DNA of 64,000 bases, from positions 1,467,001 through 1,531,000 of the forward strand of contig NZ_CP060244.1 in the NCBI RefSeq assembly GCF_014672835.1. Reading direction: 5' to 3'. Under the pieces are notes generated by a model that was given only the letters and a program-made list of their open reading frames with translations, was not told the origin of the DNA and made no database searches. Made by a program: the position numbers and the translations under genes. Within the stretch, counting starts at the first letter, position 1; every line of letters starts with the position of its first letter. Positions 2,048-64,000 of this stretch are shown here, in pieces. This DNA is from Entomobacter blattae (GTDB lineage Bacteria > Pseudomonadota > Alphaproteobacteria > Acetobacterales > Acetobacteraceae).

Positions 2048-2479
2048 GGGGGGTGTTACATTTATGATCGTTTAGGTGAAACATGATCGTTTAGGGGAAT
2101 ATAGTTTAGATAAACATCATAGTTTAGATAAAAAGGGCTTGTCACTCTAGAGTGTGCTTTTTTGGGTTTTTGCGAGCAGTATGTTGAGTTGTAGTTTAGA
2201 GTAGGCGTTGTTGGGAGAAAGAATTCGAGATATTCTGCCTTAAAGTGGGCTTATGATCAAGATTGGCAAAGTTTGGGCTTGTGTTTCAGCAGGAATTTAT
2301 TGGTAAAAAATAGCCTCTCCTCTCCTTATATGGTGAGAATATGGTGAGAACCATGAAAGCGGCCCTCAAAAGCCTGCCTGTTGAAATTGAAGAAATATTG
2401 AAATTGAAGAAATAACTATCATCTTTAGGGACCTTTCATAGCCAGATTATTCGCCATGTAATCCTCAAATCTTATACCG
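2048..2479. repeat. Non-coding stretch with short imperfect tandem repeats after hemC
   Basis: No gene is recognised here. Two copies of a 14-bp unit (catgatcgtttagg, one base differing) lie near 2070-2096, two copies of atagtttagataaa near 2101-2131, and an almost exact 17-bp direct duplication (ttgaaattgaagaaata) near 2379-2415. A 12-bp palindrome, cactctagagtg, followed by a T-run near 2143-2163 might be a weak terminator for hemC. Confidence 0.5.
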
Positions 2480-2857
2480 TCCTTTATCGTATTTGGCTTG
2501 GCCTTGGCTCGTGAGGTGGGGGATTACGGTAAAAACATTAGAAATTATGGGGTGTTCAATGTCTTTCTTGTACCCATAGGAATAGTGCCCCAGGCAATGC
2601 CCAGGCCTGGTTATACTTATAAGGCCTTACACGGTCAGGCGGCTTCCTATTTGCGCCATGGTCGGTTGGGGAGTAAGGCATTTTTTCGGGGGCCTTTCAT
2701 TAATTGCCTTCGTGGTGTTTGCCGTTAGCCAAAGAAAACCAAATTTCTGCAACAGCTAGTGCCCGTGGGGTGGAGGAGTATGGTTCTGTTATTTTCATTG
2801 TAGGTACCCTGCTCCATTATACAGAGGCTCTCTCCTTGCGCAGCTTAAGCTTTAAAT
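2480..2857 (+). pseudogene. Remnant of a sulfate/thiosulfate ABC permease (CysT type)
   Basis: No intact frame exists. At about 2756-2855 one frame reads GVEEYGSVIFIVGTLLHYTE. This resembles the CysT/CysU segment in which an EYGSVIFIAGN-like string follows the permease EAA loop. About 250 bp earlier (2495-2540) another piece reads FGLALAREVGDYGK, which resembles the residues just before that string. Stops and frame changes separate the two. The likeness is to my memory of the family and rests on about 40 residues. A hairpin terminator directly follows, as expected at the end of a former gene. An unrelated origin is possible. Confidence 0.45.
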
Positions 2858-2892
2858 AGAGGCAGGGTATAATAGACCTCTGCCTCTTTTAT
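2858..2892 (+). terminator. Rho-independent terminator after the cysT-like remnant
   Basis: The stem agaggcag / ctgcctct, extended by three pairs past a one-base bulge, is followed by a run of T (tttt att). It stands with no intact gene upstream, so it probably belonged to the decayed permease gene. Confidence 0.6.
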
Positions 2893-2949
2893 TATGGTAA
2901 AGGTGGTTGCTCATTATCAACAGGCCAAGGCAAGGTTTTATTCTCCTTG

Positions 2950-3840
2950 TTAATTGTCCTCCATCTTGAACGATTTGACTATATTAGGTGTCGCTGTTAT
3001 GGGTGTTATCACCTTGGGGGGCTTGTTTTCTTGTTTTCTGCTTGTCGCCCTGTACCGCCAGCACTTTATTACTCCAGATGCAATGATAAAGCCTGTATTA
3101 TTTCTTCCACCATCTAGGGCCGTTATCGGTTCATAAAGGCACGCGTTTGGCATAAGGTGAGCAATATCGTTTGTGGGGATATAAGGGGGATTTGAGAATA
3201 TCACGTCAAACTTCTCTGTTATTTCCCTGATGTTATGGTTTGTTTCTTTACCAGCCATACAAGCAGTGCCCTTACATTGATCAATCTATTTTTGCTTGTG
3301 CTTTTGAGGTTTTCTGTTGTGGTCTAACTGTCATCCACCCAAAAAGCATAAAGTATTTTTGTTTTTTAGCCCTGACAGCTTAGTAAATAGAGTTTTTTTT
3401 ATATTATTCGAAAATCTTCTCTTTGAAAGTAGCTACCCAAAAGAAAGCTAACCAGAGGACAGCCGATCAAGTGAGCATCACTTCTCAAAGATTGGCTGAA
3501 GACCACCTCAAAACCACGCACCCCAGAGTGCTCCAGAAGTGGGCTGCCAGAGTGGGCCAGAGTGGTCTAGAGTGATCCAGAGCGAATGCGAGTATTGAGG
3601 GCAGGTTTTGGATGTGGATTTCTTGCAGCTCTTGGTTATGCAGTCCTAGGTTATGCAGCTCTGGGTTATGAGGAGGAAGATTTACTTGGCGGGTCAGGCA
3701 GGGAAGCGAAAAGATTCTCTATGTCCTCTACTGTCACCATAAAATGGCTACAAGCGTAAAGATGATTGATTTGAGCATTCTTCGTAGCCAGGGCTATAGC
3801 CGCCTCTGAAATATCCGTTCCTGCTTGTTGTCTGAGTGAG
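2950..3840 (-). pseudogene. prmC: Broken prmC: release-factor glutamine methyltransferase remnant in two pieces
   Basis: PrmC methylates the GGQ glutamine of release factors RF1 and RF2. Reading the minus strand, the first piece (about 3840-3690) gives GTDISEAAIALATKNAQ, the SAM-binding part in which DIS is followed by an alanine-rich helix. The second piece (3258-3000) gives FDVIFSNPPYIPTNDIAHLM and then EPITALDGG, containing the NPPY catalytic motif. About 430 bp of unrelated, repeat-bearing DNA separates them, and the C-terminal segment is unlike the family. The first methyltransferase part and the N-terminal domain are missing. PrmC activity is near-essential, so an intact copy probably exists elsewhere and this is a partial extra copy. 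That last point is inference. Confidence 0.75.
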
Positions 3841-3959
3841 AGATAGCCGCATAGGTTGCATCATTCATAGAAGATCAATTCACAACCTTAGGCTGAAAAA
3901 ACAGTAAGGGCCTTTATGGGGTTGCTTGTACCATATGGTTCTTGCGCATTGGAGATTTT

Positions 3960-4320
3960 TTAATCGAAGGAGAGCTCATCTAGATACGGCATGGCTGATT
4001 GCGCACCAGGTTTGGTCACTGCCAGGGCAGAAGCCTTTATCGCTCGTTCAATGGCTTGGTTTAGGGGATAGGTTTTCTGGAAAACACTAAAGGCTCCGCA
4101 AAAACAATCCCCGGCCCCAGTAGTGTCGCCAGTAGTGTCGATAGTATTAACCTTCGGAGCGGGCAGTTATTTTACCTGTTTTTGGTCTAGACTGTAAAGA
4201 ACGCCTTTCTCTCCGTACGTCATAATCATACGTGCAGGGCAAGAGAGAATGATCTCTTCTGGTGTTTGGGTATGATATTGGGCCAGGGAGAAAATTTCGT
4301 GCTCATTAGGAATAAAATAC
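3960..4320 (-). pseudogene. rbsK: Ribokinase-family (PfkB) C-terminal remnant
   Basis: The minus strand encodes the C-terminal third of a PfkB sugar kinase. It begins PNEHEIFSLA, has an in-frame stop after QKQVK, and continues into TTGAGDCFCGAF, the anion-hole/catalytic-base motif with its aspartate. It ends GAQSAMPYLDELSFD at a proper stop (3960-3962). The active-site motif is preceded by a duplicated DTTG caused by a small tandem duplication. The N-terminal two thirds are absent. The resemblance is closest to ribokinase (PNE then TTGAGD, then A.T..GA..S.P). It cannot be functional in this state. Confidence 0.75.
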
Positions 4321-4555
4321 GAAATCAGAGAGCCGATCCCTACGAAAAATTAAAGAGTCCTCCAAAAAATTAAAATGTAGGGTAGTTTGAAATAAAAGAG
4401 TTATGAATCCCCTTTCCTGAAAAGAGAGGATAGTATGGTATGATTCTCTCTGAAGGTCAGGGTTGTTCGATGGGGTTAGTATCTCAGAGAAGCAGGCGGA
4501 AAAGCCAAAGAGGACGGCCAGAGAGATGGCTAAAGAGATGGCCAGAAAAGAAAGT

Positions 4556-5524: not shown

Positions 5525-5871
5525 AAATAGGCCAGAGCTAGGCCTTGGTGTTTATTATGCTGTTTTCTCTTCTTGTTTTGTCAGCTAGAGCTATTTTTTG
5601 AGGTATGGGCGACAATAATTTTTATATTGGCAGCCCAGGGCCGCGTTTCAGGGCCGTGTTTTGGAGTGGCTCAAGGATTGATGCGGCTGATAACAAGATA
5701 GGTTTTGACAGCTGACCGTTTTTACAGTTGACCATAGATCAGACTGATAGCTCCTACCCAGAGCAAAGGCGAGAACAGGCTTTGCAGTTTCCATCTGCTC
5801 CCCCTCTTCATCCTGAAGCTCAGAAATGATTTCTGTCATAGCTTGGCACGGGATTTCTATATCCTTCCTTT
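5525..5871. other. Non-coding gap between hemD and the dihydroorotase remnant
   Basis: No credible gene or RNA is seen on either strand. There is a small imperfect duplication (cagggccgcgtttcagggccgtgttt near 5636-5663). Confidence 0.5.
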
Positions 5872-6236
5872 CTATGTCCTGCCATTGATAACAGGAACAG
5901 GCTTTGTGGTTGAATGGCTGGCTAGGTCGTAAACTCTTTGTCCCTTTTTCCATGTACCAAGAACACGTCCCTCCATGCCGCGGCCATCAAAAGGGGTATT
6001 TTGTGCTTTTCCTGGCAAGATACCAGCAGTAACCTGCCAAATTCGATTAGGGTGAAACAGGCATAAATCTGCATTTTGGCCAGGGCGGAGTGTGCCGGCT
6101 TCTATTCCTAATATGCGGGCTGGCCCTACTGTAAGCTTATAAAGCATATCAATCATTGAGATATACCCAGAGTGAACTTGCCCAAGGCTTACAGCTAAAA
6201 GGGTTGCTAGACCTGTACCACCTGCTGCTGCCTAGA
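5872..6236 (-). pseudogene. pyrC: Dihydroorotase (PyrC, long type) C-terminal remnant
   Basis: Dihydroorotase cyclises carbamoyl aspartate in pyrimidine synthesis. The minus strand reads AAAGGTGLATLLAVSLGQVH, then LYKLTVGPARILGIEAGTL and NTPFDGRGMEGRVLGTWKKG. This is the C-terminal end of the long bacterial type. An in-frame TAG sits directly before the first alanine of that string. Upstream (6237-6490) no further dihydroorotase sequence is recognisable, so roughly the first 300 residues, including the metal site, are missing. The reading frame from the ATG at 6156 is only 94 codons. Pyrimidine synthesis would need a complete copy elsewhere, or salvage. Confidence 0.85.
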
Positions 6237-6496
6237 CAAGGCGCAAAGCGTAAAACGAATGGCTTTGCCCATACGATGATGAGGAACTGCGCACAAGTCC
6301 CCAGTGATTCTATTGATGTCTAGTCTTCAGTGATGCCCAGTATTCTGGTTACACGTTTCGTGCGCTCTACCTCATCTATAATTTCCATGGCTCTGATCTT
6401 GGATTCTGAGCTTGGGCCCTGATTTTGGGGGTACGGCGCTGAACTTTGTTGGGGCTTTAGCTTTAAGGCGCTTTTGAGTTGGTTCTGTTGTATGGA

Positions 6497-23086: not shown

Positions 23087-23959
23087 ATGTCTACAAAACC
23101 GGTTATTGGCCTTATTGGAGGCTCTGGCCTTTATGATATTGAAGGGCTGGAAAACAAGGTTTGGCGCAAGGTGAGCACCCCGTGGGGTGAGCCCTCTGAT
23201 GAGGTGCTGCTAGGCACATTAAAAGGGGTAGACTGTGTTTTTTTACCACGCCATGGGCGGGGGCATTATGTTTCTCCCTCTGGGTTAAACTACCGGGCTA
23301 ATATCCATGCCCTTAAGTCTCTGGGCGTTACGGATATTTTGTCTCTCTCGGCAGTAGGTTCCCTCAAGGAGGAGCTGGCGCCAGGGCATTTTGTGATAGT
23401 TGATCAGTTTATTGATCGCTCAGTAGCCCGTCAGAGCAGCTTTTTTGATACGGGTTGTGTCGCTCACATCTCCATGGCAGATCCGGTTTGTCAGCGTATG
23501 GGTGATAAGGTGGCGGAAGCAGCCCAGGACGTGGCTATTCCGTTTACGCGGGGGGGAACCTATTTGATGATGGAAGGCCCTCAATTTTCCACGAAGGCGG
23601 AAAGTCACCTCTACCGGTCTTGGGGGTGCTCGGTTATAGGGATGACCAACCTGCCCGAGGCCAAACTCGCCCGTGAGGCCGAAATGTGTTATGCGACCAT
23701 AGCCATGGTGACAGACTATGATTGCTGGCACCCAGAGCATGAGCATGTTACAGTTGATGCTGTCATAAAAACCCTGCACGCCAATATTGCCAATGCCCGC
23801 AAGCTGATTGAAGCGGTGATCCCTCGCTTGGGTCAACCTCGAAGCGTATGTCAGCTGGGGTGCGAACATGCCCTTGACCACGCCCTTATGACCGCCCCTT
23901 CAAAGCGTGATCCAGCCCTTTTGGAAAAACTGCAAACCATAGCTGGTCGTGTGCTGTAA
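23087..23959 (+). CDS. mtnP: S-methyl-5'-thioadenosine phosphorylase
   Basis: MtnP splits methylthioadenosine with phosphate into adenine and methylthioribose-1-phosphate, recycling the by-product of polyamine and other SAM-dependent synthesis. The 290-residue protein shows the family opening IGLIGGSGLYDIEGL, the phosphate site FLPRHGRGH, LSAVGSLKEELAPG, YLMMEGPQFSTKAE and GMTNLPEAKLAREAEMCY. The ribosome site aggaaagg precedes ATG 23087. Its 3' end is partly duplicated immediately downstream. Confidence 0.96.
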   Translation: MSTKPVIGLIGGSGLYDIEGLENKVWRKVSTPWGEPSDEVLLGTLKGVDCVFLPRHGRGHYVSPSGLNYRANIHALKSLGVTDILSLSAVGSLKEELAPGHFVIVDQFIDRSVARQSSFFDTGCVAHISMADPVCQRMGDKVAEAAQDVAIPFTRGGTYLMMEGPQFSTKAESHLYRSWGCSVIGMTNLPEAKLAREAEMCYATIAMVTDYDCWHPEHEHVTVDAVIKTLHANIANARKLIEAVIPRLGQPRSVCQLGCEHALDHALMTAPSKRDPALLEKLQTIAGRVL

Positions 23960-23996
23960 AATAGGCAATGAAATATGAGGGGAGCAAAGGGTTTGT

Positions 23997-24171
23997 TGTC
24001 ATAAAAACCCTGCACGCCAATATTGCCAATGCCCGCAAGCTGATTGAGGCTGTGCTTCCCCGCTTGGACCAACCCTTGAAGCGTATGTCAGCTGGGGTGC
24101 GAATATGCTCTTGATCACGCCCTTATCATCGCTCCTTCAAAGCGTGATCCAGCCCTTATGAAGGCCTGCAA
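23997..24171 (+). pseudogene. Broken duplicate of the mtnP 3' end
   Basis: This stretch repeats mtnP 23761-23935 at a fixed offset of 236 bp. It begins with the same tgtcataaaaaccctgcacg and diverges progressively: small substitutions, a shifted frame, and a changed end after agccctt. A further small piece (gttgaagccgtgatccttcc, 24177-24196) resembles mtnP 23810 onwards, so a third partial unit may follow. It is a non-functional tandem remnant. Confidence 0.92.
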
Positions 24172-24196
24172 ATGGGTTGAAGCCGTGATCCTTCCG

Positions 24197-25085
24197 CTTG
24201 GGGAGCAATCGCGGGGAAAGGCCGATTTGGTATCGTTTTTTGCAGTCCCCCCCCGCCTGATCTTCTAACTCCTGGTAACTTCCGGTAACTCTTGGGGGCT
24301 TCTAATTTTTTGGTCTTCTAACCCTTGGGGGGCTTCTGAAAGGAGGCTTACAATCCTATACAGCAACAGCAATAGGGTGCAAATTTGAAGGATATGCAGA
24401 TTTAATGGATAGCCCTAAAGCTTTCTGTTGAAGCCAAAGCAGTCGTCAAAAGAGGGGGCTTTAAGTGGGATGTTGACATTCTCCTATAGTGAACTCCCCT
24501 GTATAGTAAACTTTTGCTCGTTTCTTGCTCGGTTTTAGAACCTTGCTCCGTTTTAGGAAGATTCCTATAGCATCACCGGTATTTTGCCCTTAGCTGGCGC
24601 AAGATAGGGTGGTGGCATCATGGGTTTTCCATGATTGGCTGCTCAAAGATGGTGCTGTGGTATTTAAAAACACCTTACCAAGAAAGAATGCTTGCCTGAT
24701 TTGTTGATTGTTACTGAGCATATATGGCTTTTATATTTTTGTGTTTGTGTGGATCGTCCTTTCTCTTGGGCTGTTACAGCGAGTTCCCTAAAAAAACCGC
24801 CTTTGTGGTAAGGAAGACGGTAGAGGGGGACGATTTCTTGGGGATATGGCCATTATAACCTTGAGGTATGATCCTTATAACAAAGTCTCGTGCTCCAACG
24901 GATAGGCTATAGTTTGCCAGTAAGGGCTTTATCCCTGGAACCACCTCTAGTGGTGTTGTAGAGCCGATTACGAGGGTTAAAGCCCTGCGTGGCAGAGTAG
25001 TTTCTTGTTTAGGGGGTAATTTTAGGGGCCAAATTTGGGGGCCAAGGCTTTGAGGGGAAAGGGGGGCTTCCCCTCATTGTTTAAC
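24197..25085. other. Long non-coding region after the mtnP duplicate
   Basis: No gene, RNA or element is recognised on either strand. Near 24258-24345 a motif around cttctaac/ggtaact recurs four to five times imperfectly. Short open stretches do not resemble a family I know. This is probably decayed DNA. Confidence 0.5.
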
Positions 25086-28700: not shown

Positions 28701-28724
28701 GAATCTTTTTTGTTGTAGCGTAAG

Positions 28725-28756
28725 GGAAACCGCCTTTTGGCGGTTTTCTTTTTTTA
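28725..28756 (+). terminator. Rho-independent terminator after the cold-shock gene
   Basis: The stem gaaaaccgcc-like arm (ggaaaccgcc / ggcggttttc) with a 4-base loop is followed by a run of T residues, 25 bp past the stop. Confidence 0.92.
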
Positions 28757-29589
28757 TAAAGGTTTTTTACGAGTGCTTACTTTTAGAGATTCGTCACATT
28801 CATTATAGGTTTAAACATAATAGGATAAGGTGATGATATTTTATGGCTTGGATATTGTACCCTTTATTTGGAATATCTCTACCAACAACGTAACAACTCA
28901 AGCAGGTTGAGTTTGAGAATGCCAGGACGGATAAAGGTTTTTCCTCTCCGTGTTGCGAGGAGGCAACCAATTTTGTTGAGCCGTGCGGCTAAACGAGGTG
29001 AGAGGGCTTATTAAAAAGCTTTTTTATCCAAAGAGTTTTGCCCAAGTGGCCTATGAGGGTGGTTATAAAGGGCGCATTGATTTTTTTAAAGTGCGTGCCT
29101 TAAAAGCGAGACATCAGATCAGCTCTAAAAAGCTGTCCTTGCACCATTCCTATCCTTAGCAAGCGTTTAAACCCTCGCGGATGAAGCCAATGTCGCTGTG
29201 TGGGGATTATAATTTTCTTGTTTTTGCCGATGCTTTTTATCTCTTTGGTCAGGCTTTTACAGCGGATGGCCATGGATTTGCTTTTGCCTTGAAATATTCT
29301 TATCTTGGATTGTTCTTTTTTATCAGCTGGCCTTCATGGTGAGAGTTTTTTGTTGTGAATGCTCTTTCCTTCCATTTGAAAGTAGAGGGTTTTCGCTTAG
29401 GACCGCGTGTCAGGACCTCTACGAAGAGGGGCAGCCGGTAATAAGTCGAAATTTACTTCTGCTGTAAGGTTAAACACGGCAACAAAATTGAGATTATCCC
29501 CGATTCTACCCTTTTTAATAAATGACGTTTAATACAATTACATTTTTCAGAAAAATGCCTTTATCGCTTGGGTATTCCGGTGGGGATAT
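28757..29589. other. Decayed region between the cold-shock gene and the chimeric pseudogene
   Basis: No gene is recognised. One plus-strand stretch (about 28920-29010) reads PGRIKVFPLRVARRQPILLS, and another (about 29180-29340) reads as hydrophobic sequence, both broken by stops. They look like gene debris but I cannot name the family. Confidence 0.4.
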
Positions 29590-29670
29590 TTCTACAGAGT
29601 ATTGCTGCAGACGATAGTATTTTGATTATTTTGTCACCGGGAGCTTAATGTCACCGATGCCCAGCGCATT
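29590..29670 (+). pseudogene. Fragment copied from purM, 5' piece of a chimera
   Basis: Bases 29618-29670 match the purM coding strand (complement of 63873-63930) closely. Both contain attattttg, then caccggg, then gatgcccagcgcatt. In protein terms the piece reads LNVTDAQRI where PurM has LNVADAQRI. Looser likeness extends back to about 29580. The piece stops abruptly at about 29670, where emrB-like sequence begins. Confidence 0.88.
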
Positions 29671-30255
29671 TTGCCGTCGTTGTGACGCTGGCTGCTTTTA
29701 TGGAGGTGCTTGATACCACTATTGTGAATGTATCGCTTCCGCATATTGCAGGGAACTTGTCAACCACTTACGATGATGCAACCTGGACACTGACATCCTA
29801 TTTGGCTGCTAATGGCATTGTGCTGACCATTTCAGGCTGGTTAGGCCGTGTTCTGGGCCGACGGCGCTATTTTCTTATTTGTATCCTTGCATTTTCTTTT
29901 TCCTCTTTTTTGTGTGGTATTGCTACTAGCCTACCTGAGCTGATTATTTTTCGCCTCATGCAAGGGTTTTTTGGTGGGGGTCTTCAACCTAACCAGCAAT
30001 CTATTATTCTTGACACTTTTCCCCCTGCAAAGAGGGGAGCAGCTTTTGGGTTGACGGCTGTAGCAACCATTGTTGCTCCCGTGATCGGCCCGACATTGGG
30101 AGGGTGGATAACGGATAATTACTCGTGGCGGTGGATTTTCTTCATTAACGTCCCTATTGGTGTTTTAACCACATTTGCAGTTGCTGCTGTGGTTGATGAT
30201 CCACCTTGGGCCAAAAAACAGAAATCCTCGGTTGATGTTATAGGACTGTCCCTTA
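29671..30255 (+). pseudogene. Truncated EmrB-type MFS exporter (DHA2 family)
   Basis: About 195 residues of a drug:H+ antiporter of the 14-TM DHA2/EmrB family are readable. They include AAFMEVLDTTIVNVSLPHIA (the motif of helix 1), ATWTLTSYLAANGIVLTISG, LGRRRYF, RLMQGFFGGGLQP and GGWITDNYSWRWIFFINVPIG. A complete EmrB has about 510 residues, so helices 7-14 are missing. The frame runs on into out-of-frame purM sequence and stops at 30371, giving a 229-codon chimeric frame that begins near 29682. No emrA partner is visible. It is not functional as an exporter. Confidence 0.88.
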
Positions 30256-30375
30256 TTACGATTGGGCTGGGCTTGCTGTGGAGCCTGCAGAACGTACAGC
30301 CCTTTTGTCCACACCCATTAAGGCAGGTGATAAGCTCATTGATTTGTCGTCTTCGGGGCTTTAGGGTATGAGGGC
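30256..30375 (+). pseudogene. Fragment copied from purM, 3' piece of the chimera
   Basis: This piece matches purM (complement of about 63674-63780) with small substitutions. The shared strings include ctgcagaacgtacagccc and cccattaaggcagg, and the end resembles gggctt at the purM LPSSGLHS codons. Around 30250-30275 the sequence fits both emrB and purM, so the junction lies in microhomology. The 114 bp of purM between the two donor segments (63759-63872) is replaced by the emrB piece. Confidence 0.9.
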
Positions 30376-30596
30376 GGCCAGTTGAGAGGCGAGGCAATGG
30401 CTTTTTCTCACCTGTTAGGTTTTGCCTCTGTGAGGTTTTTTGCTTTATCGATGAGAAAAAGTGATTTCTAGCCAAAGGGAGTTGTTTTTAAAGTGATGCC
30501 ATTGTTGAAAGGAATGTCGTTAAGAACCGGTCTGGTGATAAAGGGTTTAGCAATTTTCTACAGGGGTTTAGCAAGAGGGGTTTAACAATAGGGGGG
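30376..30596. repeat. Intergenic spacer with degenerate repeats
   Basis: A unit of about 16-20 bp containing ggggtttagcaa recurs three to four times near 30537-30598. No gene is seen. Confidence 0.5.
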
Positions 30597-33500
30597 TTAG
30601 GAATTTTTAGGAGCGAGGAATTTTTTAATTTCTTCCAAGGCCTCCTTGAGGCCCACCCGTAGGGGGTTGGTTCCAGGGGGAAAGGCAGAGAGCATTCGGG
30701 TTGGGGTACGCCTGTCGAGCAGAACAAACACACCTTTGTCATTTTGCGTGCGAATAAGACGGCCAAAGGCCTGGCGAAGCTTAAGGCGAACGCTTTGCTC
30801 ATCATAAAGGGAAGGATTGCCTTCTGAAAGATGAATGCGCCGTTCACGGTGAAGAATTGTCCCCCGTGGCCAAGGGATTCTCTCAAAGGCCACCAATCTT
30901 AAGGAATTGCCGGGCACATCAACCCCATCTCGCATGGCATCCGTCCCTAACAGGCACGAATGGGGGTCTGCCTTAAACAGATCAATCAGGCTGGTATTAC
31001 TAATCCCATCAACATGTTGGGCAAAAAGGGTAATGCCTTGTTGTTGTAAAGGATCAACCAAGAGCTTGTAGGTGGCTTGCAAGCGGCTGATAGCGGTAAA
31101 TAACCCCAGCCCTCCACCACCTGACGCACAGAATAAGGCCTTAAAGGCACTGGCTAAAAGGGCAATGTCGTTATGTTGGACATCGGTGATAATAAAGGTT
31201 CGGGTTTGCTCTGCATAATTAAAGGGGCTGCTGAGGGAAGCCCGTATGGCTGGGAAAGGAAAATGACAAGCGCCCAGCCTTTTTTCTGCCATGTGCCAGG
31301 ATTCTTCAGTTTGGGTATCGGCCTGGTCCCGTAGCGTTGCTGAGGTCATGACAATTCCCTTGCTGAGGGGCGCCATATTCAGGGAAAAGGGCAGGGATGG
31401 GTCTGTCCAGTGGCGGTAAATGCCTAGATTATAGGCCCCAGGGGAGATGGTTGAAAAATAGTCCAGACTGAGGAAGGAAATGGTGGCGGGTGTTTCAGAG
31501 GTTTCAGAACAAGGGTGTGTATTTTGGGCTATAAGATTTTCTAGAATGGCATCCCAGGCGGTAAGGCGCTCTATGCCATGGCGCTGGAGGCTAACGAGAA
31601 GCCCTTCAATATGAAGCCGTATGTTTTTTTCGAGGGTTTGAGGGTTGGCTTCCAGATAGGTTTTTAAGGCTGTTGCGAGTTTTTTAAGGATACTGGCAAT
31701 TTCTCTTAACCCTGATTTAAGATTTTGGATAACGGGCAGGGAATGGGCCGGAAGCGGAAAAGGGTCGGCTTCTCGGGAAGCATAGGTTGATGAGTTTTTT
31801 TTGGCGGTACTGTGCAGGTGAATATGTTTGCGGAAAACCAATAAAAGCTGTTCTACAAGGGTAAGGGGTATAAGAGGGGAAGAAAAAGGGAGTTGGCCAT
31901 CTTCTGGTTGCGATCTGTTTTCTGGTTCTGATCCATTCTCTGGTTCTGATCCATTCTCTGGTTGTGACCCATTCTCTGGCTGTGACCCATTCTCTGGCTG
32001 TGACAATGTGTCTTCAAAAAGCTGATCGATCCTTTTGTTCCACCCACTTTCGGGGAGGGTTTTATGGGTGACAAGATAGAGGCTGTGCAGGTGCTCGGCA
32101 AGTTCAGGGATGGCATCAAGCAGGGTATCAAACCTTCTTCTTAGCCCTTTTGCACGGGAGTTTTTTCCTTCAGCTCCCAATAACCATCGGCGTAGCTCAG
32201 CGGCCTCAAGGCCGGAAAGGGCAACTGAAAAAGCCTGATCTGCCGCTTCTGGCAGGTGGTGGCCTTCATCAAAAATATAATGTGTAGGCAGGGTTTCGGG
32301 GGTTTGCTCGGATGAAGGATCGGCCTGGGTCTTTTCGGGGTGGGCCCAGGCGATTTGATACATGCTGAGAGCATGGTTGGTAATAACAATATCGGCCGTT
32401 TTGGCCTTGCGGATGGAATGTTCAATAAAACAGCACTGATAATGCGGGCAAGCCCCATGGATACATTCTCCCCTTTTATCGGTGAGGGCTGAAAGGTTCA
32501 GCTGGGGGAAAAGGTCTGCAAACCATCCGGGTAAATCCCCTCCCAATATATCGCCATCCTGGCTTGCTGTAGCCCAACGGGCAAGATGAGCATAGGCAAT
32601 ATGCCGGTTTGAAGGGCCCCTTATTTCTTCAGGGGGGGCTTCCTCAGGGGGAAATCCCGCAGAAGACGCAGAAAGGGTGCCATAAACTCTTCCTGTGGCG
32701 TTGCTTTCGTTTCTGAAAACCGAAAGGGATGTGGGAAGGTTTTCTTCCATGTTTAAAAGGCAAAGGTAGTTTTCACGCCCTTTTCGTAAAATGATGTTTC
32801 TTTTGGCTTTCTCCTGGTGCGGGAGGAATTTTTGGAGTTCTTTGAAGATTTGATGTTGGAGGTAGCGGGTATAGGTACTGATCCAGACGGGGGCATGGTT
32901 TTTTTTAGACCAGAGCAGGGCAGGGGTAAGGTAGCCCAGGGTTTTGCCGGTTCCTGTGCCCGCTTCTGCCAGAAGAATCACAGGGGGACCTGTATCGGGT
33001 TGGGGGGGCTGGAAGATTGTGGTGATCACGCTTGCAAAATCGGCCTGGCCGGCTCTATTTTCTGCCTTCCTGCCTAGCAGCTGGGCGAGATAGGTACGGG
33101 TTTCCTCAGAAGAGACTGCGTTTGTTTCCGATGGGGGTGGGGTGGGGGCTGGTTCTTCCCATTTGGGCAATCGTCGCCAAACGCGAATAGCATCTTCAAT
33201 GCGCATTTGGGGTGGGGTCTGTGGGGTGATATTGAGGGCATCCAGCACATAAGGCGCCCAATTCCAGTGATGATGATGCAAGAAAAGGGCTAGAGCGATA
33301 ATTTCAGGGGCATTGGGGGTATATTGCAGGCCCTTGATATGTGAAAGAAGCTGTTGGGCGACTTCATAGAGGAGGTAGGGTGTTTCTTCAGCAGAGGCAT
33401 AGCTGTAAAAGGTGCTAGGCTGGGGATGAGAGTAAATTTTTACTCCGTTGGGGTGATGAAAAAAATCCAGAATTCCCCTCAGAGTAGGAACAACATTTTG

Positions 33501-33767
33501 GGCAGGAAAAGCAAAGGTGAAGAGTTCCAGAATATCCATACAGCTTAAAGTGGGGGGCGGTTTGAGGGGGGAAATTCTCAGCTGTTGAAATGTAAAGGGC
33601 TGATAAACCATCAGCAGAGAAGAGTAGGCTGAAAGCTTTTTTAAGAGCTTATTGGGGGGGATAATATGGGGTTTGCCTGTTTCGCTTTCTGTTAAATGGG
33701 CAAAACGGTTGCGGGTAATAAGGGCTGGTAGCTGGGAAATAGGAGAAAGGGTCTGTATGGCTGGCAT
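30597..33767 (-). CDS. DinG/Rad3-like ATP-dependent DNA helicase
   Basis: A superfamily 2 helicase of the DinG/XPD group. From ATG 33767 it is 1056 residues; a TTG at 33794 is possible. An N-terminal region of about 270 residues of unclear role is followed by Walker A AEAGTGTGKTLGYLTPAL. The cysteine-rich block (CIHGACPHYQCCF) would hold an iron-sulfur cluster. The DEAH-type motif is FDEGHHLPEAADQAF. The C-terminal motifs are GIVMTSATL, LLGTDAMRDGVDVPG and RLKLRQAFGRLIR. Between the helicase lobes lie six copies of a six-residue repeat (SQPENG type). DinG-like enzymes resolve R-loops and unusual DNA. This AAB form is longer than E. coli DinG (716 residues). Confidence 0.9.
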   Translation of the reverse strand: MPAIQTLSPISQLPALITRNRFAHLTESETGKPHIIPPNKLLKKLSAYSSLLMVYQPFTFQQLRISPLKPPPTLSCMDILELFTFAFPAQNVVPTLRGILDFFHHPNGVKIYSHPQPSTFYSYASAEETPYLLYEVAQQLLSHIKGLQYTPNAPEIIALALFLHHHHWNWAPYVLDALNITPQTPPQMRIEDAIRVWRRLPKWEEPAPTPPPSETNAVSSEETRTYLAQLLGRKAENRAGQADFASVITTIFQPPQPDTGPPVILLAEAGTGTGKTLGYLTPALLWSKKNHAPVWISTYTRYLQHQIFKELQKFLPHQEKAKRNIILRKGRENYLCLLNMEENLPTSLSVFRNESNATGRVYGTLSASSAGFPPEEAPPEEIRGPSNRHIAYAHLARWATASQDGDILGGDLPGWFADLFPQLNLSALTDKRGECIHGACPHYQCCFIEHSIRKAKTADIVITNHALSMYQIAWAHPEKTQADPSSEQTPETLPTHYIFDEGHHLPEAADQAFSVALSGLEAAELRRWLLGAEGKNSRAKGLRRRFDTLLDAIPELAEHLHSLYLVTHKTLPESGWNKRIDQLFEDTLSQPENGSQPENGSQPENGSEPENGSEPENRSQPEDGQLPFSSPLIPLTLVEQLLLVFRKHIHLHSTAKKNSSTYASREADPFPLPAHSLPVIQNLKSGLREIASILKKLATALKTYLEANPQTLEKNIRLHIEGLLVSLQRHGIERLTAWDAILENLIAQNTHPCSETSETPATISFLSLDYFSTISPGAYNLGIYRHWTDPSLPFSLNMAPLSKGIVMTSATLRDQADTQTEESWHMAEKRLGACHFPFPAIRASLSSPFNYAEQTRTFIITDVQHNDIALLASAFKALFCASGGGGLGLFTAISRLQATYKLLVDPLQQQGITLFAQHVDGISNTSLIDLFKADPHSCLLGTDAMRDGVDVPGNSLRLVAFERIPWPRGTILHRERRIHLSEGNPSLYDEQSVRLKLRQAFGRLIRTQNDKGVFVLLDRRTPTRMLSAFPPGTNPLRVGLKEALEEIKKFLAPKNS
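31901..32004 (-). repeat. In-frame 18-bp tandem repeat inside the helicase gene
   Basis: Six near-identical 18-bp units (ttctctggttgtgaccca type on the plus strand) encode SQPENG or SEPENG in the helicase. Variation is mainly Gln/Glu. Being a multiple of three it keeps the frame; copy number is likely variable between strains. Confidence 0.95.
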
Positions 33768-33913
33768 GGTTTTAAGAAGATGAAAAATAAGCAAAACATG
33801 AACAAAGAGGGTTCAAAAAGAGAATATCCAAACCTACTATTTACTAACTCTGCATAAAATGTAAAGAAGAAGTCCATAATGCAGAATTTTTTCACCAGAA
33901 TATATGGCTAAAT

Positions 33914-50667: not shown

Positions 50668-50956
50668 TTAAAAGGCACCTTGTGGACTTAAAGGCGTCTT
50701 TGAATCGCCCCCATAAATTTTCTGGCCAATCTGCCTTTTGGGGTATTGGATTACAACACGTCTTTGCGCTTGCTCCATAAACACAATAAAACCAATAGTT
50801 ACAGCCGCCAAGACAAGAAACACCAAAACAAAAAAGGGTGAAAAAGCGCCTGTATAACCAAGTTGAAAAAAACTTACCAATGCTTGAGGAAGATTAGCGA
50901 CAATCCCTGCAAAAATAATGAGCGAAATGCCATTTCCAATCCCACGAAAAGTAATC
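50668..50956 (-). pseudogene. secY: Internal fragment of SecY
   Basis: About 95 codons on the minus strand match the middle of SecY, the translocon channel. They read EQITFRGIGNGISLIIFAGI (the normal string is IxxxGIGNGxSLxIF), then a membrane helix (FVLVFLVLAAVTIGFIVFME). EQAQRRVVIQYPKRQIGQKI follows, where full SecY has QRRIPVQYAKRQVG. The fragment ends in SKTPLSPQGAF, where SecY continues into further helices. The first ATG in frame is at 50880. SecY is essential, so an intact copy must lie outside this window. This is a partial extra copy. Confidence 0.9.
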
Positions 50957-51026
50957 TGCTCAATTGAACAAGATATTTAATTGGAGAGAGAGGGGTTTTA
51001 TCAGTTGGTTGTGCTGTGTTGAGGGG

Positions 51027-52163: not shown

Positions 52164-54320
52164 TTGTGTGGGCCTCTTGAGGTAAATAATTTTGTGAACC
52201 GTATCTTTGTCAATGTACTGATTGATGGGCTGCTGGCAGCGATAGCCGCCCCCTTGGCACGTTGGCTTGCTGTCCCGCAGGAAGGGTTGTTGCATCCCCT
52301 ATGGTTTTTGGCAGGTGGGGTTATTTCCCTTTCCATGGGGGGGCTACCTTTTCGGATTTTTCAGCAATATTGGCGCTTTTCCGGTGTGGCCGATCTTTTG
52401 GGAATTGCTGGTGCCTCGACAGCGAGTGCCTTTTTGTTTATGGTGGGGTTGTGGGTTACGGGTTTTTCGCTTCCATCGCCGACTTTCCCCATTATTCATG
52501 CGTTGGTTTTGTTGGTGCTCATGGGGGGGATACGCCTGTTATATCGCCTGCTGCATGGCTGGGCTCCAGGCCAGCGTAAAAATTACCGCAAGGCGATATT
52601 GGTAGGCTCTGAGACAACGGTTGAACTTTTTGCCCGTTCTTTGCTCCGCCTTAGGAATATTCCTATACGGGTTACCGGTATTTTTACCCTTAGCCGCCAT
52701 CAGACAGGGCGGCGTATTCATGGTTTTCCCATTATTGGCCCGGTCGAAGACATTGCCGTGTTATTCAAACGCCTGGCCGAAAAAGGACGTCTGCCTGATT
52801 TGTTGATTGTAACGGATAACGGCTTTCGCGGGCATGGGCTTATGGCGCTTATCCATGGCGCTGAGCAATGGGATGTGCCTGTCGAGCGTGTTCCTGACAT
52901 GACAGAATTGTCCCCAGCTTCCACAGTTGAATTACGCCCCATTGCGCTGGAAGAGCTGCTGAACCGCCCCCCTGTGGAGCTTGACCGCCAGGGGATGGAT
53001 CAGATGATTAGGGGCCAGGTTGTTTTGGTAACAGGGGCAGGCGGGAGTATTGGTTCAGAACTGGTGCGCCAGATTGCAAGCCTTTCCCCTGGCCTTTTGG
53101 TTTTGCTGGACAATAATGAATATGCCCTGTGGCGTATTGATGTAGAATTGGGGGAAACCCAGCCAGAAGTGCCGCGCAAGATTGTTATGGCCGATGTGCG
53201 GGATCGCTTGCGCATTGACAGGGTGTTTGTCCAATATCGGCCAGCCTTTGTTTTTCATGCCGCCGCCTTAAAGCATGTGCCCATGGTAGAGGCCAACCCG
53301 CTAGAAGGTCTGTGCACCAATATTGTGGGGACCAAAATTATTGCAGATAGTTGCCGCAAGTGGCACAGCGCTGCGATGGTTCTTGTCTCCACAGATAAAG
53401 CCGTCAATCCCTCCAGCCTGATGGGGGCCTCTAAAAGGGTGGCAGAAATGTATTGCCAGGCCCTTGATATTATGGCTCGTGTGGGTGACCCTGCTGGATT
53501 GCCCTGTGTTACGGTAAGGTTTGGGAATGTCTTGGGCTCTACTGGTTCGGTGGTTCCTCTTTTCCGCCGCCAGTTAAGCAAGGGTGGCCCTCTAACGGTG
53601 ACTCACCCCGATATGCAACGTTATTTTATGACCGTGCCAGAAGCCGTAGAGCTGGTTTTGCAAGCCAGTGTGCGTGCCATTGTGCGCAATGTTGAGGATG
53701 ATGATACCGATAAAAACCTTAAAAAGGGGGGGATTTTTGTTCTGGATATGGGCAAGGCCATACGGATTGAAGATTTGGCCCGGCAGATGATTCGTCTAGC
53801 AGGCCTCAAGCCTGATGAAGATATAGCCATCCGTTATACGGGCTTGCGCCCTGGGGAAAAATTATTTGAAGAGTTGTTTCATGGGAGTGAACCCATTTTG
53901 GAAACGGATCATCCTGGGTTAAAAATTGCCCTTCCTCGTAAAGCCCAATATGAAGAGGTGAATCGCATTATTGAAGACATTCATCTCGCTTGTCAGGAGG
54001 GGGCAACAGAAAGGGCTATGTCTTATGTCAGGGCTTTGGTACCGGAATTTGTCCATAATGCGCAGGGTATTCTGGTCGATGTTGATACAGGCCTACTCAA
54101 AGACGCTGTGTCTGACCCAACAGCTGAAAAAGGTGTGGCCGACCATGTGGCGATAATTCCTGAACTGGACTTTGAGCAGGATACTGAGCACGATACTGGG
54201 TTGGACTCTGAGTTGAACTCAGAACAGGGCATTGGGCTGGACATAGGGTTGGACTCTGGGCAGGGTGCTGGGCAGGAAGAAGTGATATCTGTAACGGGAA
54301 CCCTCCACCGGAGGGGATAA
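52164..54320 (+). CDS. FlaA1/CapD-like nucleotide-sugar 4,6-dehydratase, membrane-anchored
   Basis: A 718-residue member of the WbpM/CapD family that makes 4-keto-6-deoxy UDP-sugars from UDP-GlcNAc. Four membrane helices occupy residues 1-130, then a CoA-binding-like fold (KAILVGSETTVELFARSLL). The C-terminal SDR domain begins VLVTGAGGSIGSELVRQIA near residue 289 and has VSTDKAVNPSSLMGASKRVAE (SMK-type catalytic residues). The C-terminus ends in an acidic degenerate repeat (EQDTEHDTG, SELNSEQG) of about 45 residues that is not in the family. The DegT gene follows after 54 bp. Confidence 0.93.
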   Translation: MCGPLEVNNFVNRIFVNVLIDGLLAAIAAPLARWLAVPQEGLLHPLWFLAGGVISLSMGGLPFRIFQQYWRFSGVADLLGIAGASTASAFLFMVGLWVTGFSLPSPTFPIIHALVLLVLMGGIRLLYRLLHGWAPGQRKNYRKAILVGSETTVELFARSLLRLRNIPIRVTGIFTLSRHQTGRRIHGFPIIGPVEDIAVLFKRLAEKGRLPDLLIVTDNGFRGHGLMALIHGAEQWDVPVERVPDMTELSPASTVELRPIALEELLNRPPVELDRQGMDQMIRGQVVLVTGAGGSIGSELVRQIASLSPGLLVLLDNNEYALWRIDVELGETQPEVPRKIVMADVRDRLRIDRVFVQYRPAFVFHAAALKHVPMVEANPLEGLCTNIVGTKIIADSCRKWHSAAMVLVSTDKAVNPSSLMGASKRVAEMYCQALDIMARVGDPAGLPCVTVRFGNVLGSTGSVVPLFRRQLSKGGPLTVTHPDMQRYFMTVPEAVELVLQASVRAIVRNVEDDDTDKNLKKGGIFVLDMGKAIRIEDLARQMIRLAGLKPDEDIAIRYTGLRPGEKLFEELFHGSEPILETDHPGLKIALPRKAQYEEVNRIIEDIHLACQEGATERAMSYVRALVPEFVHNAQGILVDVDTGLLKDAVSDPTAEKGVADHVAIIPELDFEQDTEHDTGLDSELNSEQGIGLDIGLDSGQGAGQEEVISVTGTLHRRG

Positions 54321-54374: not shown

Positions 54375-55574
54375 ATGAAGAGCCAAACCCATTTAGAGCA
54401 AGTGGGAGAAAAGCCAGAGCAAGAAAAACAGGTGCAAGAAAAACTGGCACAAGAAAAGCCCGTACCGTTTTTGAATTTGCAGGCTCAACAAAAACGCCTG
54501 CATGACCAGATATGGCCACGGGTGCAGGCGGTTTTTCAGCATTGTCAGTTTATTCTTGGTCCTGAAGTAGGCGAGCTAGAAGAAAAGCTTGCCCGTTATG
54601 CAGGGGTTAAGGGGAGTGTGGGGGTTTCTTCTGGCACTGATGCCCTTCAGATTGTGATGATGGCTGAAGGCATAGGGCCGGGGCAGGCTGTTTTCTTACC
54701 AGCCTTCACCTATACGGCCACTGCGGAAGTTCCCTTGGTTTTGGGGGCTACGCCTGTTTTTGTGGATATCGACCCCCATACTTTCCAGATTGACCCACAA
54801 AACCTTAAGGCTCGCCTTCAGGCTGTTAAAAGGGAAGGCAAGCTTAAGCCCCGCATGATTGTGGGGGTGGATTTGTTTGGTCAGCCAGCTCCTTGGGACG
54901 AGCTGCGTACCATTGCAGCAGCAGAAAAATTATTTTTGCTTGATGATTGTGCCCAATCTTTTGGGGGGAGCTATAAAGGGAAAAAATTGGGCAGCCAGGC
55001 TGATGCAACAACCTTGTCGTTTTTCCCTTCAAAACCTTTAGGGGGTTATGGAGATGGGGGCGCTATACTAAGTGACGATGAGGAAAAATTGGCCCTGTAT
55101 CGTTCCCTTCGCTCCCATGGAGAGGGAAAAACCCGTTACCAGGTTTTGCGCACAGGCATGAATGGCCGCCTTGATACCATTCAGGCTGCGATATTACTGG
55201 CCAAGCTGGAAGGGTTTGAAGCCGAGCTGGAAAGACGCGAGAAAATTGCCCAAGCCTATGATAAAGCCTTGCAGGGTATTGTACAAACCCCGGTTCGTGT
55301 GGCTGAAAGCCAGAGTGCATGGGCGATTTATTCCATTCTTGCCCAAAATGCCCAACACCGTGCCGCCATTCAGGAGTCTCTTAAAGCTGGGGGGGTTCCC
55401 TCTGCGATATATTACCCTATGCCTCTCCATCACCAGCCGGCTTATAAATCCTATCATGATGGGGTCAGCTTGCCTGTTTCTGAAACTGTTGCCGAGCAGA
55501 TTATGGCTCTCCCCCTTCATCCAGAGCTTACAGAGGAAGAAATTGCCAGAGTTATTAAGGGGGTGCGTGGTTAG
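54375..55574 (+). CDS. DegT/DnrJ/EryC1/StrS-family sugar aminotransferase
   Basis: A PLP enzyme, 399 residues, that aminates keto-sugars made by dehydratases such as the one upstream. The core starts near residue 32 (PFLNLQAQQKRLHDQIWPRV). SSGTDALQIVMMAEGIGPG, DLFGQPAPWDEL and DCAQSFGGSYKGKKLG follow. The PLP lysine is in FFPSKPLGGYGDGGAI. RSHGEGKTRYQVLRTGMNGR and HPELTEEEIARVI are also typical. The N-terminal 30 residues are a repeated Lys/Gln/Glu stretch (EQEKQVQEKLAQEK), probably a local tandem expansion. A diverged piece of its codons 255-275 reappears inverted near 56540. Confidence 0.93.
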   Translation: MKSQTHLEQVGEKPEQEKQVQEKLAQEKPVPFLNLQAQQKRLHDQIWPRVQAVFQHCQFILGPEVGELEEKLARYAGVKGSVGVSSGTDALQIVMMAEGIGPGQAVFLPAFTYTATAEVPLVLGATPVFVDIDPHTFQIDPQNLKARLQAVKREGKLKPRMIVGVDLFGQPAPWDELRTIAAAEKLFLLDDCAQSFGGSYKGKKLGSQADATTLSFFPSKPLGGYGDGGAILSDDEEKLALYRSLRSHGEGKTRYQVLRTGMNGRLDTIQAAILLAKLEGFEAELERREKIAQAYDKALQGIVQTPVRVAESQSAWAIYSILAQNAQHRAAIQESLKAGGVPSAIYYPMPLHHQPAYKSYHDGVSLPVSETVAEQIMALPLHPELTEEEIARVIKGVRG

Positions 55575-56380: not shown

Positions 56381-56470
56381 TCTCTAGTCTCTAGTCTCTA
56401 GTCTCTAGTCTCTAGTCTCTAGTCTCTAGTCTCTAGTCTCTAGTCTCTAGTCTCTAGTCTCTAGTCTCTA
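56381..56470. repeat. Perfect heptanucleotide tandem array, nearly 13 copies
   Basis: The unit tctctag is repeated 12 times without mismatch, plus six bases of a thirteenth unit (90 bp). It lies in non-coding DNA between the small membrane protein gene and the ftsA/DegT remnants. Confidence 0.97.
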
Positions 56471-56539
56471 TTGGGTTATCCGTTTTCGGTAAACTCTATA
56501 TCGGTTAATGAACGCCCAGCATCAGCAGCCTAGGTGAGC

Positions 56540-56606
56540 CATCCTAAATAGTATCAAGTCGGCCATTCATCCCTGTGCGCAAAACCTGGTAGCGGTTTTT
56601 TTCCTC
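56540..56606 (-). pseudogene. Inverted fragment copied from the DegT aminotransferase gene
   Basis: Read on the minus strand this matches 55126-55193 of the DegT gene with about 85% identity by eye. Both contain taccaggttttgcgcacagg and then atgaatggccg. In protein terms the donor piece is YQVLRTGMNGRLDTI. Orientation relative to the donor is inverted. It is spliced directly onto the ftsA fragment. Confidence 0.9.
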
Positions 56607-56830
56607 TTCATAAACCGGCTGCCGTAGAAAAATTGGGAGCAATGGAAGGATCACCAGGGAGACCGATAATCTCTTTGGGGCGCTTAAGACGGACTTGCCT
56701 GTTCAAAATACGAGCAGCCAGGGGACCGATTCTGTTCAGAAGGGATGCTCCATCGGTAAGAACCATACGGCTATTGCCAGCTTTGCCTACACCGGTATTA
56801 TCAAGCCGGCAGTCAATACAACACATCGTA
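56607..56830 (-). pseudogene. ftsA: C-terminal fragment of FtsA
   Basis: The minus strand reads NSRMVLTDGASLLNRIGPLA, then ARILNRQVRLKRPKEIIGLP and APNFSTAAGL. This corresponds to the C-terminal actin-like subdomain of FtsA, where alphaproteobacterial proteins have VLTGGASQL, RILNRQVRLGRP and PAFSTAAGLL. A stop follows at the junction with the DegT fragment. FtsA is essential for division, so the working copy must be elsewhere; this is a partial copy. Confidence 0.82.
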
Positions 56831-61577: not shown

Positions 61578-61998
61578 TACCCCTGTTTTACTTCGTGTGT
61601 TTAACCTTGTGTGTTTTATCCCGTATTTTGGTTGTATGTTTTGGCTAGCATGTTTTGGTGGGCATATTTTAACAGGTCTATAGTCGTAGAGGTTAAACTC
61701 TCGTCTTGACCGAAGCCTTGTGCATTGAGCCTCTGTATCGGCATTGAGGGCGATCATGCGGTCATCATGGCCTTCGAGCTAGACTCCACTTTGGGGATTA
61801 CAGCAAACAACGTACGATCACGTATGATCTTGGTGGTTGTTTTGAAAACCACTATCCATCTGCACAATAGCCCGGTTGCTTTTTGTCTCCCTTCCATAAC
61901 GAACACGAAGAGGCGCTTTGTGCATTTCTGTGGGGCCTTGGTGCCTGTAACATCTACAGCATCGGCCTTGGTTTCATGGTAGGCCCCCCCAGCAGCAG
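61578..61998. other. Decayed region with degenerate repeats and an unassigned remnant
   Basis: Near 61590-61675 a T/G-rich unit (about 15-17 bp, like ttgtgtgttttatcc) recurs four to five times imperfectly. Read on the minus strand, 61700-61960 has gene-like pieces (RMIALNADTEAQ, PLRVRYGRETKSNRAIVQMD) broken by stops. I cannot name the family. Confidence 0.45.
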
Positions 61999-62116
61999 GA
62001 TCACTCGCGGGTAGAGCTTATGTTCTTACTCTAATACGCGTAAGGCAAGGGATTTTTCTGTATCATCAGGCAACACTGGAACAGCAGTTTGGCCAAGGAT
62101 AGGGCCATCATCCATT
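61999..62116 (-). pseudogene. Duplicate fragment of purN
   Basis: This 118-bp stretch equals 62385-62502 of purN at an offset of 386 bp with only two substitutions seen by eye (c/t and g/a type), so the copy is recent. It covers the purN codons for the segment ending MDDGPILGQA and LRVLEQEHKLYPR. It lies in the same orientation as purN. Confidence 0.95.
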
Positions 62117-62204
62117 GAGATGCTGGAAGGTCGGGATTATCGTTAACCTTGGGGGTTATTCCATGGGGAGTGTTCGATTTGACCTTTCCTGTGCCAGGGT
62201 CAAA

Positions 62205-62324: not shown

Positions 62325-62948
62325 TTACCCGTTCAGCAGAAACTCCCCTTTCGGGTGAGCGGAGGCACGCTCGATAAAATGCTTGATCACTCGCGGGTAG
62401 AGCTTATGTTCTTGCTCTAATACGCGTAAGGCAAGGGATTTTTCTGTATCATCAGGCAACACTGGAACAGCAGCTTGGCCAAGGATAGGGCCATCATCCA
62501 TTATTTCGGTCACAAGATGGACACTACACCCATGAATTTTTACCCCAGCCTCCAACGCTCTTTTATGGGTGTTCAACCCAGGAAAGGTCGGCAGAAGACT
62601 GGGGTGGATATTCAGCATTTTGCCTTCCCATTGGGTAACCAAGTAATCACTCAGCATTCGCATATAACCCGCAAGACAGACAAGCTCGATATTGGCTTGC
62701 TTTAACACGGCATGGATGGCTTCTTCATGGCTTTGGCGATTTTTCTTGTAAAGGGTGTGGTCTTCAACATGGGTGGGGATATGGTGGGCTTTGGCTATGG
62801 CAAGGCCTTCGGCATGGGGGGTATTGCTGAGCACAAGGCCAATTTCTGCAGGGAAAAATGCCTGTTCGGCTGCCTGTATCAGGGCGAGCATGTTACTGCC
62901 CCGTCCACTGATGAGAATAGCAATACGAGGTTTGGAAGATGGTGTCAT
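62325..62948 (-). CDS. purN: Phosphoribosylglycinamide formyltransferase (GART)
   Basis: Transfers formyl from 10-formyl-THF to GAR in purine synthesis. The 207-residue protein is full length: ILISGRGSNMLALI, VLSNTPHAEGLA, LAGYMRMLSDYLV and the catalytic Asn/His of MLNIHPSLLPTFPG. IHGCSVHLVTEIMDDGPI follows with the catalytic Asp. The ATG is at 62948. purM lies upstream in the same orientation, separated by about 240 bp, so an operon is plausible. Confidence 0.97.
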   Translation of the reverse strand: MTPSSKPRIAILISGRGSNMLALIQAAEQAFFPAEIGLVLSNTPHAEGLAIAKAHHIPTHVEDHTLYKKNRQSHEEAIHAVLKQANIELVCLAGYMRMLSDYLVTQWEGKMLNIHPSLLPTFPGLNTHKRALEAGVKIHGCSVHLVTEIMDDGPILGQAAVPVLPDDTEKSLALRVLEQEHKLYPRVIKHFIERASAHPKGEFLLNG

Positions 62949-63188: not shown

Positions 63189-64000
63189 TTATGAAAAAGT
63201 GGGAAGGGGATTAAAGCGTACTGGAGTACTGGTGGAAGCTTCTACATGGCCGATAATAAAGGCTTGTTCCTCCCTACGGGCGAGGTCCTCAAGAACATGG
63301 TCTGGCTGCTCGGTGACAACAACCATACCAAGGCCACAGTTAAACACCTTTAGCATTTCTTCGGGTTCAACTTTACCGTTTTGGGCTAACCAGGGGAAAA
63401 CCTTGGGCATTGGCCAGGCTGAACCATCGATTATACAGCCTAACCCTTTGGGGAAAATACGGGGCAGGTTACCAGGCAGTCCCCCACCGGTAATATGGGC
63501 TGCAGCTTTAATAAGCCCTTGAGCATGAAGGGCAAGAATGGACGCAACATAGAGGCGTGTGGGCTCCATTAAGGCTTCGGCCAGTGTGCGCTCAGGTTGG
63601 AAAGGGGCCTTTTCCCCCAAAGAATGGTTGGCTTGTTTGAGAATATGGCGAACTAGCGAAAACCCATTGGAATGAAGCCCTGAGGATGGCAAACCAATAA
63701 GCGTATCGCCTGCCTTAATGGGCTTGGGCAAAAGGGCTGTACGTTCTGCAGCCCCCACAGCAAACCCAGCCAAATCGTAATGGCCAGGGCCGTACATACC
63801 GGGCATTTCTGCCGTTTCACCGCCCACCAGGGCACAGCCTGAAAGCCTACACCCTTCGGCAATCCCCAGAATAATGCGCTGGGCATCGGCGACGTTAAGC
63901 TGCCCGGTGGCAAAATAATCTAGAAAAAATAGTGGTTTAGCGCCTTGAACAATTAAGTCATTGACACACATAGCCACCAGATCTATCCCCACGGTTGTAT
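63189..64000 (-). CDS. purM: Phosphoribosylformylglycinamidine cyclo-ligase (AIR synthetase), 5' end outside window
   Basis: Closes the imidazole ring to make AIR. About 270 residues are visible. They begin with [37 protein letters not shown] and [54 protein letters not shown] and the last helix of the PurM_C domain follow. The N-terminus, including the ATP-binding start, lies beyond the right edge. Segments of this gene reappear in the chimera at 29590-30375. Confidence 0.97.

Follow-up and report, generated by a model that had tools for sequence, protein, structure and literature searches.

The stretch of DNA analysed here (the window) comprises 64,000 nucleotides of the chromosome of Entomobacter blattae, a cockroach-gut species, and coordinates are those of the window unless a genome position or another stretch is named. 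Between a cold-shock gene and a gene for a DinG/YoaA-like helicase lies a fragment of purM that carries a recent copy of part of emrB, and a third self-fragment, derived from parE, sits just upstream of this construct. The features of the locus, together with the intact purM gene, are as follows.

29323..29569, plus strand: older parE fragment, 74% identical (E 1e-37) to genome 2559430-2559665, a source confirmed as parE
29624..29670, plus strand: 5' remnant of the purM fragment, copied from window 63873-63920 (minus strand), 92% (E 6e-11 to 5e-11)
29671..30271, plus strand: recent copy of emrB codons ~27-226 within the purM fragment, source genome 18821-19425 (minus strand), 99%, 3 mismatches
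29682..30371, plus strand: accidental chimeric ORF of 229 aa, the N-terminal half of EmrB followed by a frame-shifted purM tail
30255..30271, plus strand: 17-bp emrB/purM homeology at the 3' junction, 16/17 in a three-way alignment
30255..30361, plus strand: 3' remnant of that purM fragment, copied from window 63675-63781, 86% (E 6e-29)
63189..63998, minus strand: intact purM, 356 aa, donor of the host fragment, extending past the end of the window

The downstream helicase gene (30597-33794) encodes a 1065-aa protein which contains a tandem repeat tract (SQPENGSQPENGSEPENGS...) and scores below the family cut-offs.

A search of 28702-30600 against the whole E. blattae genome matched 29671-30276 to genome 18821-19425 (minus strand) at 99% identity (E 1e-313). 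This donor lies outside the window and is an intact emrB (527 aa, above the TIGR00711 cut-off) adjoining emrA, the closest relatives of its product belonging to the family of Acetobacter, Gluconacetobacter and Commensalibacter; both emrB and purM are thus present in intact form elsewhere on the same chromosome. The first-pass annotation had proposed that purM sequence flanks a truncated emrB, with the donor purM 33 kb distant, and the alignments bear this out: the likeness to purM is far from chance, the positions it gave are correct to within about 10 bp and the inserted emrB has the length of about 585-600 bp that it claimed. Its figure of 114 bp of replaced purM needs correction, as the alignment shows 91 bp (63782-63872) to be missing between the two flanking pieces. 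At base level the emrB copy differs from its source by three mismatches in about 600 bp before the homeology block, whereas the purM pieces are 8-14% diverged from intact purM (among the changes are Pro-to-Ser and Gly-to-Asp replacements and a stop following 'SSGL'), and because of this difference the purM fragment is taken to be the older part and the emrB insert the younger. The idea that two gene fragments were joined in one splice is therefore replaced by one in which a recent emrB segment entered an older purM fragment.

The two ends of the emrB copy differ. The 3' junction lies, as had been suggested, where the two genes read alike: the sequence ATTACGATTkGGCTGGG (30255-30271) is common to emrB and purM at 16 of 17 positions, and because base 30264 is emrB-like in the three-way alignment the crossover probably took place within 30265-30271. 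At the 5' junction (29670/29671) there is no microhomology and no base common to both sides. The earlier proposal of microhomology-driven joining accordingly survives for the 3' join, through the 17-bp homeology, and fails for the 5' join and for the other junctions described below, where none was found beyond chance. The 229-aa chimeric ORF has no intact homologue along its full length; MFS relatives match residues 1-199, or 204 at most, and the C-terminal tail that is unmatched in them is purM read in a shifted frame. Judged from its sequence, the chimera looks non-functional.

Whole-genome searches of three stretches revealed further fragments that are themselves interrupted by other fragments, as well as uninterrupted copies. 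Those in the window, and one from the sampled stretch L135, are listed here.

2344..3076, plus strand: fragment derived from genome 2265363-2265717 (73-84%), with two inserts: 2566-2758, copied from 776003-776184 (90%), and 2838-2934, copied from 2514257-2514356 (93%)
3106..3822, plus strand: fragment derived from genome 2175770-2175992 (88-90%), with a 492-bp insert at 3228-3719 copied from 2188619-2189097 (94%)
3951..4324, minus strand: copy of genome 2415181-2415542, 95%
5720..6270, minus strand: fragment derived from genome 1695031-1695236 (81-94%), with an insert at 5892-6239 copied from 2545585-2545932 (99%)
24543..24717, plus strand: old copy of window 52641-52816, 74%
50700..50962, plus strand: copy of genome 51576-51838, 98%
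56468..56809, minus strand: fragment derived from genome 190253-190522 (88%), with an insert at 56540-56611 copied from window 55117-55188 and no host base lost or duplicated
61667..62203, plus strand: fragment derived from genome 1327994-1328272 (77-89%), with inserts at 61771-61897, copied from 854555-854669, and at 61999-62116, copied from purN (window 62385-62502, 98%)
L135: fragment of genome 1166854-1166957, split at 1166914/1166915 by an insert copied from 2178568-2178682 (98%)

Nesting is frequent, and as a rule the younger copy lies within the older. In the clear nested cases the insert is closer to its source than the host fragment is to its own. A few old cases are equal or reversed in this respect (e.g. 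the insert at 61771-61897, at 80%), as noise from drift would give. At five nested insertions no base of the host fragment is missing or repeated (window 56540, 61771 and 61999; L135 17955; L143 2966); thus the host at 56468-56809 is split by 72 bp between genome positions 190450 and 190451, and that at 61667-62203 runs on across both of its inserts, being split at 1328095/1328096 and 1328197/1328198. At other nested sites about 7-24 bp of the host is duplicated, or a few base pairs are missing (host gap −24 to +8), and a target-site duplication of fixed length was not found, the host gap being 0 in the five cases and variable otherwise. At the 15 junctions where both neighbours are known, a small set, microhomology was not above chance (mean 0.87 bp against 0.95 bp in simulated blunt joins, P 0.62). 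The 52 ends of 26 recent copies have no common terminus; a 'CAT' motif at the right ends of the five clean cases was discarded when it disappeared in the larger set. A and T are weakly enriched at the join (P 0.003 and 0.001 before correction for the roughly 30 positions examined), which could hint at an enzyme preference. The copies, their sources, the nesting and the differences in age can be read directly from the alignments, as can joins without microhomology, strong motif or loss of host sequence at most of the resolved junctions.

When the window was compared with itself, further copies of coding sequence in intergenic DNA came to light. The extent of such copying was then gauged by self-comparison of 60 stretches, 59 of 20 kb spread across the chromosome plus the 64-kb window, which together make up 46% of the genome (a single 2.70-Mb contig, estimated to be 99.98% complete, with a GC content of 0.45-0.47); gene calls were mechanical ORFs. 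This sample holds 126 pairs of a coding and a non-coding segment with identities of 67-100%, 30-408 bp long when recent, and these merge into 117 distinct non-coding targets in 41 of the 60 stretches. By extrapolation we estimate roughly 550 copies genome-wide, source and target being assumed to be sampled independently. In the window, 5.1 kb of recognisable self-copies account for a quarter of the DNA outside ORFs. Nor is the chimera an isolated event: self-fragments of this kind are present throughout the genome. Neither the orientation of the copies nor their position in the source gene is biased, and three-quarters of the pairs (75%) are more than 200 kb apart; there is also a local excess, with 15 of the 126 lying within 2 kb of their source, so that some of the copies may have arisen by local duplication. 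One near-tandem partial duplication was seen at 23758-24172, where 23994-24172 repeats, at 88% identity, the end of the ORF at 23087-23959 and is placed 57 bp downstream of the copied stretch.

Source segments fall within ORFs in 71% of cases, across ORF edges in 14% and in non-coding DNA in 14%, compared with 65, 16 and 19% at random, and on these figures the sources look random with respect to genes. In absolute numbers, 12 source segments extend over an ORF edge and another 12 lie in non-coding DNA, near to random placement, although operon read-through could still give sources of this kind if the copies were RNA-templated. Substitutions between source and copy are biased from GC to AT and are spread across all codon positions, not third positions alone, and we therefore conclude that the copies decay neutrally. 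One ORF (279 aa) has been copied into at least two other places, at 97% and 93% (L108 14160-14567, L134 11010-11414, L135 13533-13745), so some sources have been used more than once. A repeat family in L155 3919-9589, L157 18342-18714 and L161 3123-9280, one part of which extends over 3,967 bp at 100% identity, is distinct from the single-source scraps and is perhaps a mobile element.

The same procedure applied to 200 kb from each of four relatives, all of other genera and with a higher GC content where measured (0.645 in G009, 0.674 in G001), gave no copies in G008, G021 and G009 and two in G001, against 1-13 (median about 5.5) in 200-kb resamples of the E. blattae genome. Both G001 copies trace to a single pair of regions that are 73-75% identical and probably represent a decayed paralogue, and the build-up of self-copies was thus not seen in the 200 kb taken from each of these relatives. 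ORFs of at least 100 aa cover 78% of the E. blattae genome, compared with 88-90% in the relatives. In the library of papers that we searched, there was no report of such a pattern in a bacterium.

The genome was also surveyed for machinery that might be responsible. Ku-type NHEJ was rejected as there is no Ku, though the joins at the 15 junctions are blunt or near-blunt without microhomology: PF02735 had no match in the E. blattae genome, and the same search was positive in a Bacillus subtilis control. Loss of mismatch repair, RecJ or dnaQ was rejected since MutS, RecJ and DnaQ are all present (DnaQ, at L142 19271-19957, matches TIGR01406 above the cut-off). Capture by a transposon or IS was set aside because there are no shared ends and no fixed duplication and the copies are arbitrary gene segments, and capture of foreign DNA because one 5.7-kb patchwork stretch had no match in plasmids; when the focal region was compared with plasmids, the positions covered by the top-listed matches were those of emrB and the cold-shock gene. 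A motif scan of the sample for ligases and integrases gave nothing usable. Two reverse transcriptase genes were found: a gene of the retron I-C type RT-Toprim class, apparently broken, being split into a 322-aa RT ORF and a 239-aa ORF for the Toprim part (L166 437-2274, reverse strand, genome ~919847-921684), and an intact DRT2-like gene of 540 aa (L167 1042-2664, genome ~1324245-1325867). Nothing in this analysis ties either of them to the self-fragments.

The explanation that we favour, and consider probable though far from secure, is a continual, genome-wide copying of short random stretches of the organism's own chromosome into breaks elsewhere by Ku-independent joining. Stretches of tens to a few hundred base pairs would be copied into chromosome breaks, only intergenic insertions would survive selection, and the survivors would drift neutrally and then serve as targets for further insertions. 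At the focal site an old purM fragment would have received a recent emrB segment of ~600 bp, one end being joined through the 17-bp emrB/purM homeology and the other without homology, with loss of 91 bp of the purM fragment. The inserted molecules may have been the products of double-stranded breaks or short DNA fragments of other origin, and the joining may have been Ku-independent end joining with homeologous annealing where this was available. Several points count against such capture at breaks, namely the lack of a Ku gene, the 7-24 bp host duplications or small deletions at some sites, the local excess of pairs, the weak AT enrichment at the boundaries and the 3' purM/emrB homeology, which is unlike the other junctions. 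Replication template switching (MMBIR), in which the polymerase would switch to a distant stretch, copy it and come back close to where it had left, would explain why the sources remain in place (i.e. copying), would give the 7-24 bp host duplications by a return slightly upstream and would suit the emrB 3' join at the homeology; however, the mean microhomology at the 15 junctions does not exceed chance, which on this limited number argues against both template switching and short-patch illegitimate recombination as the main route, and five returns to exactly the next base would need explaining, and we regard it as an unlikely, if serious, contender. An unrecognised enzyme, such as a single-strand transposase, an integrase or a reverse transcriptase, that pastes random genomic or RNA-derived fragments without target duplication seems to us rather less likely: clean insertion between adjacent bases, the weak AT preference at the boundaries and the presence of the DRT2-like and broken retron-type genes would all be in keeping with it, but the termini are not shared, the sources, which take in ORF edges and non-coding DNA, look like random DNA and not like a set of transcripts, and both reverse transcriptases resemble defence systems, one of them being split.

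The purM/emrB event taken alone, with a homologous anchor at its 3' end, an illegitimate 5' end and 91 bp of the recipient replaced, would fit integration of self-DNA from natural transformation, or of leftover ssDNA, by double or homology-facilitated illegitimate recombination as in Acinetobacter baylyi, where a paper by Harms et al. 2016, going by its title, reportedly deals with illegitimate recombination that integrates intragenomic DNA. We nevertheless think this a shade more doubtful than a dedicated enzyme as an account of the whole, because the other resolved events are mostly pure insertions without loss of recipient sequence or microhomology and RecJ, which is said in the title of one paper to suppress such events in A. 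baylyi, is present; the failure of the 5.7-kb stretch, with its many inserts, to match plasmid records is a weak sign against environmental DNA, and uptake of DNA from kin is possible. That the chimera arose as a solitary, microhomology-driven splice of two gene fragments is highly improbable: the 3' homeology is real, but the parts differ in age and the genome contains many similar constructs. Least credible of all is a chimera of assembly or library construction, to which the few copies of 98-100% identity might point, against which stand the range of identities from 67 to 100%, the GC to AT bias, the indels, the young copies found inside old ones and a genome assembled as one nearly complete contig. 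Returning to continual copying into breaks, a bolder version, which we put forward only tentatively and think doubtful as it stands, would have a Ku-independent activity, not yet described, insert random short self-copies bluntly without duplication or loss of the target, and fast enough to account for the coding density of ~78%, the layered and datable intergenic DNA and the new chimeric ORFs.

Illegitimate recombination in A. baylyi is known from rare laboratory events with microhomologies, and the homology-facilitated form usually relies on an anchor much longer than 17 bp. The likeness lies in short segments of self-DNA at unrelated sites and in a purM/emrB event with one anchored and one illegitimate end, albeit with an anchor much shorter than is usual; in E. 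blattae, by contrast, hundreds of events are fixed in one genome and most are pure insertions without microhomology. Plant mitochondria also form chimeric ORFs as by-products. Their genomes have undergone intergenic expansion by double-strand break repair and resemble the present one in having intergenic DNA with duplicated gene fragments (PMC3193812, PMC3260318). The E. blattae case differs in being a free bacterial chromosome with recognisable sources among its own genes and layers that can be ordered by age. Portiera lacking dnaQ, with its unstable, intergenic-rich genome, is likewise insect-associated and shares the low coding density and the repeats in intergenic DNA (PMC7821994), whereas in E. 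blattae dnaQ is intact, MutS is present and the genome is 2.7 Mb. Rpn (YhgA-like) nucleases promote RecA-independent recombination by non-specific breaks, and the 100-500 bp fragments to which RpnA digests DNA are similar in size to the self-copies (PMC5350276). They were nonetheless rejected as the cause, the family not being found in the E. blattae genome (no match to TIGR01784).

Bacterial genomes are usually compact, and short self-copies made by illegitimate recombination are regarded as rare. The E. blattae genome appears to gather them by the hundred and in datable layers, and so preserves in nature the traces of a mutational process for which selection experiments and plant mitochondria are otherwise the main sources of evidence. 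Two questions become testable: by what means DNA ends are joined in the absence of Ku, and what gives rise to chimeric ORFs and non-coding DNA in bacteria. There is a warning here too, in that what is taken for a 'pseudogene' or a 'gene remnant' in a genome of this type may never have existed as a whole gene at that site.
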